Positions 14,484-21,768 of a stretch of DNA of 61,365 nucleotides are shown piece by piece. The notes beneath the pieces are model-generated. The model ran no database searches, had not been told where the DNA came from, and worked only from the letters and a program-made list of their open reading frames with translations. Where the stretch lies: positions 1 to 61,365 of the forward strand of contig JAAXIC010000015.1 of NCBI GenBank assembly GCA_012270555.1. Direction: 5' to 3'. A program made the position numbers and the translations under genes. Origin of the DNA: Chloroflexota bacterium. GTDB lineage: Bacteria > Chloroflexota > UBA11872 > VXOZ01. How positions within the stretch are numbered: the first letter of the stretch is position 1; every line of letters starts with the position of its first letter.

Positions 14484-15593
14484 ATGATTACGTACGATGA
14501 CATCAACGTCGGCACATTCATCAACGCCAGCGGCACGGTGACGACGCTGGGCGGCAGTCTGATGCCGGAGCCGGTGGTGGAGGCTATGGTACAGGCCTCC
14601 CGCAGCTTTGTCGGACTTGACGAGTTGCACGAGAAGGCGGGCAAGTGGCTGGCTGATGAGATCGGCGTGCCGGCCGCGTTCATCGCTTGTGGCGCCGCCA
14701 GCGGCATGCTCGTAGCGGCCGCGGCCTGTTTGACCGGCACGGACACCGACCTGATCCGCGCGCTACCGGAAGTGCCGAGCGGCAAGAACGAGTTTGTGAT
14801 TAGCTACGTGGATGAGCACACGTACGTCCACCAAGGCTTCCGGGTCGTTGGCGGCGTGCTGGTGACCGCCGGCACCAACGCGGGCGTGACATCAGAGGAG
14901 CTAGTTGGCGCTATTACCGAGCGCACGGCGGCGGTGGTGCACTTTCTCGGCAAGCAGTCCAAGCAACAATTGATCGAGGTGATCGCCGGGGCGCACGAAC
15001 GCGGCGTGCCGGTAATCGTCGACGCTGCGGCGCAATTGCCGCCCCGCTCCAATCTAGCAGAGATTGTGGGGCTAGACGCCGACCTAGTAATTTTCAGCGG
15101 CGGCAAGGGCATTCGTGGCCCGCAGGCCACAGGGCTCGTGCTGGGAAGACCCGACCTCGTGGAGGCAGCGCGCCAGAACGGCAGTCCGCAGAGCGCGGTC
15201 GGACGCGGCATGAAGGTGGGCAAGGAAGAGATCATGGGGCTGCTGAAAGCAGTAGACCTCTACCTGGCGCAAGACGAGGCAGCGGAGCTCGACGGCTGGG
15301 AAGCGCAGATGCGCACGGTAGCCGCGGCCGCGCACGGCCTCGAAGGCGTGACCGGTGAAGTGCGCCGCCAGGATGAAGGCGCCAGTTGGGATATCGTACC
15401 CCACGCGCAGATCAGATTCGGGGGCGACAGCGATACGCAGGCCGCCAACGTTGCCCGCGCCCTGCGGGAAGGCGAGCCCTCGATCGACGTGCGGCTGAAC
15501 GAGGAGGGCATCCTCATCAGCCCCATGACGCTGCAACCCGGCGAAGCGGAAGTCGTCGCCGACCGCCTCCGCGCGGCCCTGCAAAAGCGATAG
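14484..15593 (+). CDS. SelA-like PLP-dependent enzyme
   Basis: A 369-residue fold-type I PLP enzyme of the SelA/D-glucosaminate-6-phosphate ammonia-lyase-like group. AAGGAG precedes the ATG. INASGTVTTLGGS near the N-terminus and VDAAAQLPPRSN (PLP Asp) are family motifs. The PLP lysine is in FSGGKGIRGPQATG. It is about 100 residues shorter than true bacterial selenocysteine synthase and lacks its N-terminal tRNA-binding domain, so it more likely acts on an amino or hydroxy acid. It belongs to the preceding catabolic run. Its closeness to the putative selenoprotein genes is probably coincidental. Confidence 0.78.
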   Translation: MITYDDINVGTFINASGTVTTLGGSLMPEPVVEAMVQASRSFVGLDELHEKAGKWLADEIGVPAAFIACGAASGMLVAAAACLTGTDTDLIRALPEVPSGKNEFVISYVDEHTYVHQGFRVVGGVLVTAGTNAGVTSEELVGAITERTAAVVHFLGKQSKQQLIEVIAGAHERGVPVIVDAAAQLPPRSNLAEIVGLDADLVIFSGGKGIRGPQATGLVLGRPDLVEAARQNGSPQSAVGRGMKVGKEEIMGLLKAVDLYLAQDEAAELDGWEAQMRTVAAAAHGLEGVTGEVRRQDEGASWDIVPHAQIRFGGDSDTQAANVARALREGEPSIDVRLNEEGILISPMTLQPGEAEVVADRLRAALQKR

Positions 15594-15695: not shown

Positions 15696-16724
15696 TTAGA
15701 AGTTACCCGTCCGGCTCTCGTACTTCGTCGGTTTGCCCAGGGTTGAACCCTCGTGCTTCACCCACCAGGCGACCCATTCGATGATCTGTTCCGCCGGTAC
15801 GCGCGGCGCGCCGAAGGTCTCCACGTAGCGCGTCGCGTCGCCGAGCAGTGCGGTGTTTTCCGGTTCTCCGGTGAAGATTGGCGCCACGCCGAGACGCTCG
15901 CCCAAGGCTTCGGCCACCTGTTGCACGGAAAGGGTCTCGGTGCCGGTCAGGTTAATCACATCGGCGGGGCTGGCACAGAGCGGGAACGAGCGCGCCAGCA
16001 TGTCGCAGGCGTCGCCCTGCCAGATTTGGTTGGCGTAGCCCATTGACAAATCGATTGGCGTCTGCTCTTTCACCTTGGTGGCAAGGTCAAGAATGATGCC
16101 GTAGCGGAGTTCGGTAGCGTAGAAGAGGCGCACAATCAGTGTGGGCGTTTGGTTCTTCTCCGCGTAGTATTCCACCAGGCGTTCGCCGCCCAGGCGTGAT
16201 TCGGCGTACTCACCCACAGGGCCGAGCTCTCCACATTCGTCTGCGCCGCTGCCGTCCACCGGCATGAAGCGGTACACGTTGCCGGAGGAGACATAGACCA
16301 TGCGGGAGTGGGGAAAGCGCTCCATGAGCTTGGCCGGCACGAGGGTGTTCATAGCCCAATTAAGCGAGGGCGCGCCGCTGGAGCCGAACTTGAACCCCGC
16401 GAGCAAGTAGAGATACGGCGCATCCGGCAGCTTGGCGACACTTTCGTCGTCCAGCAGGTCACAGGCAACGGTCTCCACGCCCACGCTATCCAAGTACCGG
16501 CGCGATTCCGGCGAGGAGAAGCGGGACACTCCTATCACCCGTTTCGCGCCCGCGCGCACCAAGAGTTCCGCGAGCGTGGGCCCCATCTTGCCCGCCACAC
16601 CCAGCACCATGACGTCGCCGTCCAGCGCCTGCACCGCATCACACGCTGCCGGCGTGGGCGCGGTCATTTGCGCCATGAGCTCCTCTTCAGTCTGTAACGG
16701 CGACAATAACGTCTGCTTGCTCAC
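15696..16724 (-). CDS. NAD-dependent epimerase/dehydratase-like protein
   Basis: A 342-residue extended short-chain dehydrogenase. GTG start at 16724 with ACAGGAG about 7 bases upstream. The nucleotide-binding motif is VLGVAGKMGPTL (about 41-52), followed by VYVSSGNVY. At the catalytic YxxxK position the sequence reads YAESR, so the usual lysine appears replaced by arginine, which may alter or weaken activity. It is the last gene of a minus-strand run that includes the two thioredoxin-like genes 160 bases upstream. The substrate is probably a nucleotide sugar or sugar acid, without firm evidence. Confidence 0.8.
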   Translation of the reverse strand: MSKQTLLSPLQTEEELMAQMTAPTPAACDAVQALDGDVMVLGVAGKMGPTLAELLVRAGAKRVIGVSRFSSPESRRYLDSVGVETVACDLLDDESVAKLPDAPYLYLLAGFKFGSSGAPSLNWAMNTLVPAKLMERFPHSRMVYVSSGNVYRFMPVDGSGADECGELGPVGEYAESRLGGERLVEYYAEKNQTPTLIVRLFYATELRYGIILDLATKVKEQTPIDLSMGYANQIWQGDACDMLARSFPLCASPADVINLTGTETLSVQQVAEALGERLGVAPIFTGEPENTALLGDATRYVETFGAPRVPAEQIIEWVAWWVKHEGSTLGKPTKYESRTGNF

Positions 16725-16885
16725 AACATGCTCCTGTAAGGCGAGGGAAAGTTTCTCTACAGTATAGCGCGGGAAGTCCCTTGACTACAGTTAGGTGCGC
16801 CGCTTCTGCCAAGCAGAATCAGTGGTACGGCGTTCGCAATTTTACCGACCAACACGAAGCTCGGCACGTGGAGTGAGCGCTTGCC

Positions 16886-17371
16886 TTACTCCTGCTGCAG
16901 CCCGGCAGCGACTTCCTGCGGGCTGGGTACTCTGCCAGTGAACCGCAGTTGCTCCGCGCCCGTCTCGTCGTAAACGACCAGAGACGGCACTGAAGAAATG
17001 TCTAGACGCTCGGCGAAAGCGCGCCCGACGGGCGTATGCTGGCTGAGACGCACGATGTGCGCAGTCTCGCCAAACTCTCGCTCGATCCCATCGACCGTGG
17101 GGCGGGCCGCAAGGCTGCTTGCTCAGTAGTGGGAGAAGAGAACTACCAATACCGGCGAGCCCTTCCCAATTAGCCCATCCAATGCCGAGATATCGGCGAG
17201 GTTCGTTTCACGATAGCGCTGGAGGGACGCTACGGCGACAAGACCAACGCCCAGCAGCGTGACAAGCGCCAGGCCGGCAGACTTCGGCAACCAAAGGTAG
17301 GCCGCCACCGCGCTGGCAGGGAGGACAAAGACCACAAAAAGGAGGTAGGAGTACTGGTTGACGAACCGCAT
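16886..17371 (-). CDS. Membrane-anchored thioredoxin-like protein A with in-frame TGA (putative selenoprotein, UxxS)
   Basis: Read through one TGA this is a 161-residue protein. Two hydrophobic helices (about 9-28 and 30-51) are followed by a thioredoxin-like domain. The TGA at 17123-17125 is residue 83 and falls exactly where thioredoxins have the first active-site Cys (VLVVLFSHY-TGA-ASS). The frame then stays open for 78 codons to a TAA and encodes a normal C-terminal half: ARPTVDGIERE, VRLSQHTPVG, the cis-Pro motif in SSVPSLVVYDETG and a final helix. The second Cys is replaced by Ser. The start at 17371 aligns with paralogue B; an in-frame ATG at 17401 also exists. Selenocysteine insertion is the best explanation. 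Confidence 0.75.
17087..17101 (-). other. SECIS-like hairpin downstream of the TGA in thioredoxin-like gene A
   Basis: On the minus strand CCCAC / GATGGG pair with one bulged A around a GGTC loop. The loop begins about 27 bases after the TGA, with G in the first loop positions, as in bacterial SECIS elements (apical loop about 16-37 bases after UGA). The stem is short. A second small stem (GCAAG/CTTGC) follows the TGA directly. Confidence 0.4.
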
Positions 17372-17491
17372 TGCGTCTATCCGTCCGAATTGTCCATTCA
17401 ATGTAGTCTTGAGAACTATAGCACACTATGTATGCAGAGAGCTGGCCGTGACATGCATGCCGCGCGTGCCGAAAGCGGAGAAAGGGCGCAG

Positions 17492-17974
17492 TCACTCGTG
17501 GCCGAGCGCCTCCAGCACCGGCTGCTGCTTGATTACGATTCCGTCCTTGCGCAGCCGCACCTCGCCTTGCCCGTCGAACACTATGAAGGAGGGCACCAGG
17601 CGCAAGCCAAGGCGGGCCGTGATTGCGCCGCCGGCCGGCGAGTGCCGGTTCAGGCGGATGACCCGCACTGCGTCGCCAAGGTCGCGTTCAATCCCATCGA
17701 CGATGGGGCGTGCCACCAGGCACCCCGCTCAGAAGTTCGAGTACACGGCCAGCAGCACCGGCAGTCCCTTGCCGATCAGGGCATCCGGCGGAATTCCGCT
17801 GGTGTCGTCATCGCGATAGCGGGTGAGCGAGGAAATCGCAATGAATGCTGACAGCGAGAAAAGGATGGCAAGCAGGCCACCGGTCCCCGGAAACCACAGG
17901 GCGGCGGCGAGAATGCAAAGTGATACCACGAAGACCGCGATAAAAATGTACGAATACTGGTTCGCAATTTGCAT
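17492..17974 (-). CDS. Membrane-anchored thioredoxin-like protein B with in-frame TGA (putative selenoprotein, UxxC)
   Basis: Read through one TGA this is a 160-residue paralogue of the next gene (A). It shares the NQYSY start, two membrane helices (about 8-26, 28-50), the RYRDDD segment and LIGKGLPVLL before the active site. The TGA at 17729-17731 is residue 82 in VYSNF-TGA-AGC-LVARP, giving a UxxC motif in place of CxxC. The frame then runs for 78 codons, the same length as in A, through VDGIERDLGD, VRLIRLNRHS-like and VPSFIVFDGQG with the cis-Pro. Catalysis would be on the outer face of the membrane if the helices export the domain. The genes are tandem, about 120 bases apart. Confidence 0.8.
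17693..17707 (-). other. SECIS-like hairpin downstream of the TGA in thioredoxin-like gene B
   Basis: CCCATC / GATGGG form a perfect 6-base stem with a GTC loop on the minus strand. The loop lies 28-30 bases after the TGA and starts with G, matching the general bacterial SECIS layout. A stronger hairpin (GGGGTGCC / GGCACGCCCC with a 2-base bulge) lies between them. The segment also encodes conserved residues, so selection may be on protein. Confidence 0.45.
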
Positions 17975-18294
17975 CGTGTCACATCCCTGTGTTTGATGCA
18001 GCGTTCATGCTACAACGCAATTCTAACCGATAGAGTTCGCATGTGTTAGGTGAAAGCACTACGCTGCTTTTTTCTGCCCGCTTCAGCGTATGTGGAGATT
18101 GACCGCCCAACTGCCAGCCACCCATAGTATGCCATTTGAGCTTCCAGGCTTGCTTGGAACGGGGGCTCTCTAAAGCAAATTGCCTGGTAGAAGTTTGTGC
18201 CCTCACCTTGCCAGGGGCTTTACCCACCTCGGTTTCGGCTGCGGTTTGCCAATGCGCTACAATGGGTGCAAGTTATCGAAACGAAGAGGCCACC
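17975..18294. other. Divergent intergenic region between thioredoxin-like B and NIF3-like 1
   Basis: A 320-base gap that must hold the promoters of the minus-strand thioredoxin operon and the plus-strand NIF3-like gene. A TACAAT at 18258-18263 is a possible -10 for the latter. No tRNA-like cloverleaf is apparent. Confidence 0.3.
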
Positions 18295-19257
18295 ATGACT
18301 CTGCGCGACCTCTACGAAACGTCAATACAACTCGGCATGGCGCTGGACGTGCGGGGCGAGGCCGCGCTCCAGCGGCAGATGGCGCAGCGGCGGGAAGAGT
18401 ACGCTGCGTTGCCCGCTTGGCAGCAGTCATACTACGATCAGGAACGCTTCCGCAATCCCTATGGCGACGTGCGCATTGTCAACGGTCCCGCGGACGTGGA
18501 GCTTGAGACGATACTGTTGGGCATCAACATCGGTCTTGACGAACTACTGCTGGCCGACCGGCTGCGGAGCAAGGGCACCAAGATCGATGCCGTGATAGCG
18601 CACCACACCAACGACATCGGCGTTGCCATCTCGCTCGTACATGATTTCATGCCGGTGGCCATTGACTTTCTGGCCGGTGAGGGCGTGCCGCGCGCCAACG
18701 CCGCGGCTTGCATCAACCGGTTTATCGAGGAGAAAGAACAGGCCCTTGAGGATACGGCCCGCATGGGGCCGGATATGGCAAAACTGCTCGGCTTTCCGCT
18801 GGCCTGCATCCATACGCCGGCGGACTACTACATTGGCGAGGGCGTGCGGCCGGCAGTGGAAGCGGCGCAACCGCAGACGGTCGGCGACGTGGTGCGCGCA
18901 CTCATGGCGATCCCCGAGGTGCAAAGCGCCGCGCACATTGGCGCTGAGCCGCGCGTGATGAGCGGAGAGGCGAAGTGGCCGGCCGGACGCATGCTGCTGA
19001 AGTTTGGCGGCGGGTACGGTCTGCCGCCGGACGCATTCACCTTGTTGGGCAAGGCGGGCGTGAACACCGTGGTGCAGATTGGCTGCTCGCCCGCCCAAGC
19101 GCGGGCCGCTCAGGAGGCGCGCGTGGCGATCGTGCGCATCGCACACGCGGCGTGCGACAACATTGGCATCAACCTGCTGCTGGATGAGGTTGAGCGCCGC
19201 TTGGGACCGCTTAACGTTATTCCGTGCAACTACTTTGAGCGCGTCAAGCGGAATTGA
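18295..19257 (+). CDS. NIF3-like protein, paralogue 1 of 3
   Basis: A 320-residue protein. The frame is open further upstream (to 18136), but the ATG at 18295 is chosen because the paralogues start with the same MTLRDLYETSI segment and AAGAGG precedes it. Pairs of likely metal ligands are IAHHTND (about 101-102), CIHTPAD and HAACDNIG. Their spacing and the glycine-rich GAEPRVMSGE and LLKFGGGYG segments suggest the NIF3/YbgI dinuclear metal fold, a family of GTP cyclohydrolase-like or unknown function. The family call is tentative. Two further copies follow on the same strand, probably by tandem duplication. Confidence 0.6.
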   Translation: MTLRDLYETSIQLGMALDVRGEAALQRQMAQRREEYAALPAWQQSYYDQERFRNPYGDVRIVNGPADVELETILLGINIGLDELLLADRLRSKGTKIDAVIAHHTNDIGVAISLVHDFMPVAIDFLAGEGVPRANAAACINRFIEEKEQALEDTARMGPDMAKLLGFPLACIHTPADYYIGEGVRPAVEAAQPQTVGDVVRALMAIPEVQSAAHIGAEPRVMSGEAKWPAGRMLLKFGGGYGLPPDAFTLLGKAGVNTVVQIGCSPAQARAAQEARVAIVRIAHAACDNIGINLLLDEVERRLGPLNVIPCNYFERVKRN

Positions 19258-19596
19258 GTAGGTCACTGTCACGCTATTAGCTGTGAGCAATTGCATGTTA
19301 CGGGATTTTGCCACCATCGCAGGTGGCAAGTGGTAGTCATTGCCAAGGGAATAGCACAAGGGACTCCGTCATTAGTCTGAAAACAGCGTGACCAGCCGCT
19401 CGCCCTGAGCAGCGTCGAAGGGTGAACGGCGGGGAAACGGGCAACAGCTTTCGACACTCTTTTCTCCGTACATGCTTCGACAAGCTCAGCACGAACGGAG
19501 AGATGTGCGTTCACTTTACAGATAGACCCCCGCTTTCGCGGGAGTGGCGAATAGAAATGAAGCACAGCATGTAGGAGACTGTGTGGAATAAGGGAT
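19258..19596. repeat. Intergenic stretch of dispersed repeats
   Basis: A 339-base gap without a gene. It contains fragments of the TTCGACAAGCTCAGCACGAACGG repeat (about 19405-19500) and a CCCCGCTTTCGCGGG palindrome (about 19527-19543). Both families recur elsewhere in the window. Confidence 0.6.
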
Positions 19597-20568
19597 ATGA
19601 CCTTACGCGACTTGTACGAAGCCTCCATCGAAATCGGCCGAGAGGTCGATCCACGGGGTCGTGGAACGCTTGACCGCCAGCTTGAGCAGCGGCAGCAAGA
19701 GTACGCCGCCTTGCCGGACTGGCGCAAACCCTACTACGAACAGGAGCGCTTACACAATCCGTATGGCGACGTGCGCATTGTAAACGGTCCGGAAGATACC
19801 GAACTCGATACGATTATGCTGGGGATCAACATCTGGACCCAGGAGTTGTTGCTGGCAGACCAGCTACGAAGCAGCGGTACGCGGGTCGATGCGGTTGTTT
19901 CCCACCACACCAATAGCATTGGCGTACCGGCGGATACGCTGGTGTATGACTCGGTGCCTTATCTCGTTGATCTGCTGGAGGGTGCAGGGGTCTCACGCGC
20001 CGACGCCGAGCCCCATATCGACAACATGATGACCGATCGTTGGCTCAATGCCGAAGACTTCAACCGCATCGGCAAAGACACGGCAAAGCTGCTCGGTTTT
20101 CCCCTGGCCTGCATCCATACGCCGGCGGATTTCCACCACGGACGCGGTGTGCGCGGTGCTATCGAGGCCGCCAACGCGCAAACGGTAGGTGACGTGGTGG
20201 AGGCGCTGCTTGCCCTGCCGGAGTTTCAAGGCGCGGCCAAGATTGGCGCGATCCCGCGCATCATGGCTGGAGACGCGGGCCAACCCGCCGGCCGCATCTT
20301 CCATCAGGACGGTGGCGGCTGGCTCGTTCCGGCGGAGGTGATCCCTTTGCTGAAAGAGGCAGGTGTCGGCACGTTCGTCACCATCGGCTGCTCGGCTGAA
20401 CACCAGAAGAAAGCGCAAGAACTCGGCATGGGCTGGGTGCGCATGCCCCATAACGCGTGCGACAACGTAGGGCTGAACCTTCTGCTCGATAAGGTCGAGC
20501 AGCGGCTCGGGCCGTTGAATGTGATTGCGTGCAACTATTTCGAGCGGATTAGGCGGAACAGCAATTGA
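19597..20568 (+). CDS. NIF3-like protein, paralogue 2 of 3
   Basis: A 323-residue paralogue with the same layout: MTLRDLYEASIEIG start, VSHHTNSIG metal site, CIHTPADFHH, GAIPRIMAGDAGQPAGR, and HNACDNVGLNLLLDKVE near the end. AAGGGA lies upstream of the ATG. All putative ligands are kept, so each copy may be active. The final NVIACNYFERI matches the other copies. It is separated from copy 1 by 339 bases of repeats, so it is probably transcribed on its own. Function is unknown beyond the tentative NIF3-like fold. Confidence 0.6.
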   Translation: MTLRDLYEASIEIGREVDPRGRGTLDRQLEQRQQEYAALPDWRKPYYEQERLHNPYGDVRIVNGPEDTELDTIMLGINIWTQELLLADQLRSSGTRVDAVVSHHTNSIGVPADTLVYDSVPYLVDLLEGAGVSRADAEPHIDNMMTDRWLNAEDFNRIGKDTAKLLGFPLACIHTPADFHHGRGVRGAIEAANAQTVGDVVEALLALPEFQGAAKIGAIPRIMAGDAGQPAGRIFHQDGGGWLVPAEVIPLLKEAGVGTFVTIGCSAEHQKKAQELGMGWVRMPHNACDNVGLNLLLDKVEQRLGPLNVIACNYFERIRRNSN

Positions 20569-20649
20569 TGTATGCCCAATGCGGAGGCTTGTGCGCTGCA
20601 ACTTGAGGAACCGCATGCAGCCACCGCTATTGGTCTGGGGAATAGGAGT

Positions 20650-20684
20650 CCCTCACCCTAGCCCTCTCCCACCGGGAGAGGGGA
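20650..20684. repeat. CTCACCC/GGGAGAGGG palindromic repeat
   Basis: CCCTCACCCTAGCCCTCTCCC, a 3-base ACC loop, then GGGAGAGGGG. This intact copy shows the hairpin form of the repeat family also found at 13357, 29132 and 60071. Confidence 0.8.
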
Positions 20685-20748
20685 CTTCCACGCTTTGTCA
20701 CGGGCTATGTAAAGATCTCAACTGAGAGAGAATGAGCGGACTGAGAAC

Positions 20749-21768
20749 ATGGTGACTCTCCGTGAGCTGTACGAAACCTCTATTCAGATCGGGCGTGAAC
20801 TAGATCCCAGAGGCCAGGCGGCCATCGAGCGCCAACTGCAGCAGCGCCGGGAGGAATATGACGCGCTGCCGGCCTGGGAACAGGCGCTCTACGACCAAGA
20901 GCGCTTCCGCAATCCCTACGGTGACGTGCGGATTTCAAACGGCCCGGAAGATGCGCCGATCCGCACCGCGCTCGTGGGCATCAACATGCACGTCAAGGAA
21001 ATGCTGCTCGGCGTGCAGCTCGCTGCCAAAGGCACGCAGATCGACGCATTCATCTCTCACCACACGAATAGTGTCGGCATTTCCGCCTCCCTCGTCGCCG
21101 ACTTCATGGAAGTCAACGCGGACTATTTGGTCTGGGAGGGCGTGCCGGAGGATGAGGCGCGGGCGTCCATCTTCGACTACATGGCGGAGCGCCTGCAAGA
21201 GCATGAAGACATGCACCGCATTGGCCCGGATACGGCAAAGCTGCTCGGGTATCCACTGGCTTGCATTCACACGCCGGTGGACTATGCGCACCGGCAATTT
21301 ATCAACGCGCTCTTTGCCCGGGAGAAGCCGCGGACGGTGGGCGACATTGTGGAGCTCATGCTGTCGATACCGGAAATGCAGGAGGCTGCCCGCATTGGCG
21401 CGGTGCCCCGCATCATGACAGGCGACCCGGCACAGCCCGCCGGACGCATTCATGCCAAATTTGCCGGCGGCTACGCGTATCCGGCGAGCGCCTTTCCGCT
21501 GTTGGCGCAAGCGGGCGTGAATACAGTGGTGCAAGTCTCGGCTGGCGCAGGAACGGTGGCTGCCTGCCACGAGCACGGCATTGCGGTGGTGCGCTTGCCC
21601 CACTACGCCACCGACAACATCGGCGAGAATCTGCTGCTCGATGAACTCATGCGCCGCCTGGAGCCGTTCGACGTCATTCCCTGCAACTACTTCGGCCGGG
21701 TAGATCGGGCGGGACATCTTGCCGAGTTGCAAGCGGCAGGGCCTATTATCAGGTCGCTGAAGAATTAG
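20749..21768 (+). CDS. NIF3-like protein, paralogue 3 of 3
   Basis: A 339-residue paralogue with a C-terminal extension of about 15 residues (AGHLAELQAAGPI) not seen in the other two. The metal-site motifs ISHHTNSVG, CIHTPVDYAH and HYATDNIGENLL are present, the last resembling the NIF3 GHxxTE motif more than in the other copies. The ribosome-binding site is weak. It is the last of the tandem set, ending 134 bases before a convergent Na+/solute symporter gene. A link between the symporter and these proteins is possible but unproven. Confidence 0.6.
   Translation: MVTLRELYETSIQIGRELDPRGQAAIERQLQQRREEYDALPAWEQALYDQERFRNPYGDVRISNGPEDAPIRTALVGINMHVKEMLLGVQLAAKGTQIDAFISHHTNSVGISASLVADFMEVNADYLVWEGVPEDEARASIFDYMAERLQEHEDMHRIGPDTAKLLGYPLACIHTPVDYAHRQFINALFAREKPRTVGDIVELMLSIPEMQEAARIGAVPRIMTGDPAQPAGRIHAKFAGGYAYPASAFPLLAQAGVNTVVQVSAGAGTVAACHEHGIAVVRLPHYATDNIGENLLLDELMRRLEPFDVIPCNYFGRVDRAGHLAELQAAGPIIRSLKN

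Follow-up and report, generated by a model that had tools for sequence, protein, structure and literature searches.

Thioredoxin-like proteins with selenocysteine (Sec) in a UxxC active site are already known as a kind (PMC13188914, PMC2398784). The 119-family selenoprotein inventory of May 2026 includes UxxC forms of thioredoxin (PF00085) and of PF13098 as well as other thioredoxin (Trx)-like groups; it holds no membrane-anchored Chloroflexota family and no separate entry for the lineage described here (PMC13188914). A further described type, GOS 'Trx-like 3', is cd02950-like, UxxC and mostly marine (PMC2398784). A search of the literature on selenoproteins of Chloroflexota/Anaerolineae yielded no paper on the family; the work consulted from it deals only with selenocysteine formate dehydrogenases. 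Membrane-tethered thioredoxin-like proteins of the TlpA/ResA/HCF164 type combine an N-terminal anchor with an extracytoplasmic Trx domain, and usually have one helix and CxxC. As for cd02950, we take it to be the membrane-associated TxlA group.

The window analysed here, a 61,365-nt stretch of Chloroflexota DNA, carries on its minus strand two paralogous genes in tandem, each interrupted by a single in-frame TGA. Gene A (17492..17974) is predicted to encode a membrane-anchored thioredoxin-like selenoprotein of 160 residues with Sec82 in the motif UAGC (UxxC), and gene B (16886..17371) a selenoprotein of 161 residues with Sec83 in the motif UASS (UxxS). The putative Sec codons lie at 17729..17731 (codon 82 of A) and 17123..17125 (codon 83 of B). 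Translation of 17974-16886 shows that the preliminary description of the locus had placed both TGA codons exactly and had counted correctly the 78 codons that follow each of them up to a true stop (TGA at 17494-17492 in gene A, TAA at 16888-16886 in gene B). Alignment likewise agrees with its proposal that both TGA codons stand at the first Cys of the thioredoxin CxxC. Over their full length of 160 residues the two proteins share 42% identity (E=6e-46), and the alignment runs unbroken across the TGA. In orthologues from two sister species, the terminal TGA of gene A is replaced by TAG. A detail that had passed unremarked is the difference between the active sites, UAGC in A versus UASS in B, which leaves B without the second (resolving) Cys. 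We consider it almost certain that A and B are tandem selenoproteins, each predicted to have a two-helix anchor and a Trx domain, with Sec in place of the nucleophilic Cys. The selenoprotein reading is strongly supported by the Sec machinery of the host, by homologues with TGA or Cys at the same codon, and by the finding that TGA is not read as Trp.

Among the families of Pfam and NCBIfam, proteins A and B have only sub-cut-off thioredoxin matches (PF00085, 15.4 bits against a gathering score of 23.5; TIGR01068, 25.3 bits against a cut-off of 96.8; PF13098, 16.2 and 21.3 bits for the window copies against a gathering score of 27), nor do the same collections place their relatives in any closer named family. 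Copy B and several homologues match PF13098 better than any other Pfam family. The cyanobacterial slr1796-type model is matched by only one of 14 family members, and tblastn of the plasmid collection gave nothing beyond thioredoxin-like matches. With the catalogued Sec thioredoxin (PF00085, 'Thioredoxin' in Table 1 of PMC13188914) the family shares the Trx fold, Sec in first position, the cis-Pro and, in A, UxxC, but it differs in its N-terminal membrane helices, its sub-cut-off scores and the UxxS of B. The 'Thiol:disulfide interchange protein' selenoproteins (PF13098, UxxC) have Sec at the same place; they are set apart by the scores of the window copies, 16-21 bits and thus below 27. GOS 'Trx-like 3' resembles the family as a divergent Trx-like UxxC type, and on this comparison, made by description only, the two might overlap (PMC2398784). 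Therefore, the word 'new' in the preliminary description has to be divided: the kind, UxxC Trx-like selenoproteins, was known before (PMC13188914, PMC2398784), whereas the membrane lineage appears to be uncatalogued. In other words, it is well established that Sec can serve as the Trx nucleophile, and what appears to be new is the lineage, its breadth, the UxxS paralogue, and the switches between Sec and Cys that go along with loss of the hairpin.

An AlphaFold2 model based on 52 sequences (mean pLDDT 89) places helices at residues 8-27 and 31-51 as a membrane hairpin, followed by a thioredoxin fold. These two predicted transmembrane helices of gene A (17822..17953, minus strand), to which family hydropathy also points, are the two N-terminal membrane helices of the preliminary description, now predicted at good confidence. 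Foldseek comparison of the model with the PDB returned thioredoxins, mostly with TM(target) of 0.6-0.8, and the profile matched PDB thioredoxins with an E-value of 7e-19. The features that define the Trx superfamily are found in the predicted structure, namely an active site at the N terminus of a helix and a cis-Pro before a strand. This cis-Pro (Pro128), in the downstream half, is invariant among 52 homologues, in line with the conserved C-terminal half described earlier. The family differs from the TlpA/ResA/HCF164 type in that it comprises a one-helix branch beside the two-helix one and has Sec in most of its members. Among 45 members with two helices, the segment richest in basic residues is the inter-helix loop, with about 2 K+R versus 0.3 at the N terminus, and in one-helix members the N terminus is basic. 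By the positive-inside rule, we infer that the Trx domain would lie outside in both types. For the host genus this orientation is taken from the relatives because its own inter-helix loop is almost uncharged; the basic residues there follow helix 2.

The family extends well beyond the host genus. Among 400 Chloroflexota genomes, a profile search found 38 with TGA aligned at the active-site codon. Together with a scan of GTDB species contigs it produced 67 non-redundant TGA sequences; forms with Cys in this place are in the minority. Homologues with Cys or TGA aligned at the codon, which the preliminary description had proposed to look for, thus both occur. Nearly all matches of the species-contig scan are Chloroflexota, and one TGA-form MAG is labelled Acidobacteriota. 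Each of the five other species sampled in the host genus retains the TGA, as do distant homologues from other families of the phylum (31-36% identity); orthologues of gene B with UGA are found in three genomes (G001, G002 and G005). We built a tree from 65 TGA and 15 Cys rows (score >=60) with the active-site column masked and the root not known. Sec is widespread in both main branches of this tree, and the Sec/Cys labels require nine changes, at least four of which are forced by well-supported branches. The tree, its root not being known, is consistent with repeated change from Sec to Cys. The A/B duplication falls within the host genus. UxxS (UGAS) active sites also occur at three other loci (L061, L078 and L125), where they apparently arose apart from gene B.

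The TGA forms have in common an RNA hairpin, CCC(A/G)UC-GUN-GA(U/C)GGG, at a fixed place, with the loop (GU start) 27 nt after the UGA. According to the bSECIS model, the apical loop has 3-9 nt with a G in its first two positions, the stem has 4-16 bp, the distance from the UGA is 16-37 nt, and the MFE is at most -7.5 (PMC13188914). The putative bSECIS hairpin of gene A, CCCAUC-GUC-GAUGGG (17693..17707, minus strand), lies within these bounds, having 6 bp, the GU-starting triloop GUC 27 nt after the UGA, and -8.3 to -9.0 kcal/mol. At least five of the six pairs are formed in 64 of 67 TGA forms versus 1 of 11 Cys family members. At one pair an A-U/G-C exchange covaries (31+33 sequences consistent, 2 not; Fisher p=2e-16), and rare variants are compensated, as in CCCUUC/GAAGGG (L139), CCUGC/GCAGG (L141) and CCGGC/GCCGG (L137). 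The covariation score (pair count) is 0.248 versus 0.119 for shuffled alignments, none of 500 shuffles reaching 0.248, and it drops to 0.015-0.063 in slid-partner controls. RNAalifold recovers the same helix unaided. When synonymous codons were redrawn with the amino acids fixed and the codon frequencies of window genes applied to every species, the hairpin turned out much more stable than expectation in TGA forms (mean z -2.1), and not so in Cys forms (+0.3). The 3' arm contains GGG in 52 of 67 TGA forms, and GGG makes up 12% of the Gly codons in neighbouring genes. Compared with dinucleotide shuffles, 34-nt folds have no extra stability (z +0.2 for A, +1.4 for B), and therefore the support for a SECIS element is comparative, not thermodynamic. 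When 60 nt of gene A are folded, competition from an upstream stem keeps the probability of the conserved hairpin down to 0.02, and the hairpin forms once the ribosome-covered nucleotides are omitted from the fold. A search of 16500-18400 against Rfam gave no match. As judged from these alignments, the hairpin of the TGA forms fits the bSECIS model, and Cys homologues have lost it.

The hairpin also bears on the best surviving alternative, which we consider unlikely, namely that only gene A works as a selenoprotein and that gene B is decaying, or has a UGA so poorly read that a short membrane fragment is its main product. The candidate bSECIS of gene B (17079..17101, minus strand) consists of two alternative hairpins, weaker than that of gene A. 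Of the phylum-wide hairpin, 4 bp are left (CCCA/UGGG, 17087-17101); the other one, CG-G-UCGAU-GGG-AUCGA-G-CG (17079-17097, loop GGG 33 nt after the UGA), is within the bSECIS numbers (-8.5 kcal/mol for the 34-nt stretch) yet not above shuffles, and against synonymous controls the z of the gene B hairpin is about 0. Because the hairpins do not beat the controls, reading gene B as a selenoprotein leans more on the TGA and on coding conservation. Decay would also be compatible with the missing resolving Cys and with a frameshift after the UGA in the second copy of G001 (L027 about 1820-1860, contig C6), which may be true decay or an assembly error. However, several species retain both the TGA of gene B and the coding sequence that follows it; dN/dS in this part is 0.20 in two informative pairs (0.35 in a third pair with two differences only), and UxxS is found independently elsewhere in the family. 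One comparison of gene B (16889-17371) stands out, that with G005 (C326:1082-1564), where dS is 0.50 before the UGA and 0.016 after it, as if recombination had swapped the 3' half with a breakpoint near the UGA.

Much less room is left for programmed readthrough by near-cognate Trp or Cys tRNA, with no Sec and with the truncated membrane fragment as the main product; we regard it as very improbable. Low-level UGA readthrough does exist in bacteria, but the codon in question is that of the catalytic nucleophile, where aligned homologues carry Cys only, and UGA forms track both the Sec machinery and the SECIS-like hairpin. On these grounds simple readthrough was rejected. In the host genome (3.18 Mb, 97% complete) tRNA-Sec scores 67 bits against a cut-off of 47, with the anticodon TCA according to ARAGORN, and selB (378 bits), selA (572 bits) and selD (382 bits) are each above their curated cut-offs. 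The preliminary description had proposed to search for selA, selB, selC and selD; all four are encoded, and neither of the refutations that it had set out, lack of this machinery together with lack of such homologues, or reading of TGA as Trp, came true. The host SelD has one UGA of its own at the known UxxK site (L020:1531-1533, contig C48) and is itself predicted to be a selenoprotein. Across the phylum, selA is present in 37 of the 38 genomes carrying the TGA form, the exception being 86% complete and in about 1040 contigs. The window has a PLP-enzyme-like gene of its own (14484-15593, plus strand) with a SelA-family Pfam match of 31 bits; the true selA is on contig C15, and the product of this gene is probably a SelA-like enzyme with another function.

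It is hardly credible that A and B are pseudogenes, both killed by a nonsense mutation at the active-site codon. Standard annotation would indeed give ORFs truncated at the TGA, 81 aa long in gene A and, in gene B, 82 aa long from its ATG or 92 aa from an upstream TTG. Nevertheless, TGA occurs at the same codon in many species across the phylum, no further in-frame stop follows, and the RNA hairpin is conserved only in TGA forms. Downstream of the UGA, dN/dS is 0.12-0.37 for gene A; purifying selection after the TGA is thus found in both genes (0.20-0.35 for B), and values upstream of the TGA are similar. The preliminary description had considered two chance nonsense mutations very unlikely, and the conservation of TGA throughout the sampled genus and in many families bears this out; it is also the ground on which we rejected the pseudogene reading. 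The idea that TGA has been reassigned genome-wide to Trp or another residue, which would explain why in-frame TGA is tolerated in A and B, can be given practically no weight. RF2 (prfB) is encoded in the host genome (483 bits), among 12 long genes in the neighbourhood three have TGA as their stop, and all 70 Trp codons in those 12 genes are TGG; therefore TGA is a normal stop elsewhere. There is, moreover, no in-frame TGA inside the host selA, selB and prfB matches, and the residue that aligned homologues have in this place is Cys rather than Trp. As independent genomes show the TGA as well, an assembly error was rejected too.

The most likely role of the proteins is that of a membrane-tethered, probably extracytoplasmic, thiol-disulfide oxidoreductase. 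SelB and tRNA-Sec would decode the UGA with the use of the hairpin. Copy A (UxxC) would then act as a dithiol/selenol thiol-disulfide oxidoreductase tethered to the membrane, probably on its outer face, and might be re-reduced through one of two CcdA/DsbD-type proteins; the host genome encodes these and no VKOR was found in it, which makes re-reduction via CcdA possible. Copy B (UxxS), with a lone selenol, would have a monothiol action, e.g. in deglutathionylation-like or peroxide reactions or with another thiol resolving it.

The gene neighbourhood across the family loci indicates no firm function. At Anaerolineae loci (L034, L076, L093, L106, L094 and others) the family gene is usually followed, with an overlap or directly, by a SAM methyltransferase gene and then by a metalloenzyme-superfamily gene, and a long divergent gene lies upstream (EF-G-like in L034, where checked). 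Upstream of one-helix members (L068 and others), four of 28 scanned neighbours are thioredoxin-domain proteins, and in L068 and L090 the start of the selenoprotein gene is overlapped by a small gene; these arrangements may hint at a redox relay. The window itself has three tandem, apparently paralogous ORFs of 373, 323 and 339 aa at 18136-21768 (plus strand), without a Pfam match at E 1e-5.

Based on these data, we lean towards the broader view that the pair belongs to an ancestral, phylum-wide and uncatalogued family of Chloroflexota membrane seleno-thioredoxins, in which Sec would be ancestral and Cys repeatedly derived with loss of the SECIS hairpin. In the host genus, duplication would have led to a membrane pair of a UxxC dithiol-type and a UxxS lone-selenol enzyme. 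Automatic annotation would cut such proteins at the active site, and therefore a redox family of a large environmental phylum would be invisible or filed as short membrane pieces. With its numerous Sec and Cys forms, in which the hairpin is gained or lost to match, the family offers a good natural test of bacterial SECIS requirements, and in the UxxC/UxxS tandem pair dithiol chemistry could be compared directly with that of a lone selenol.
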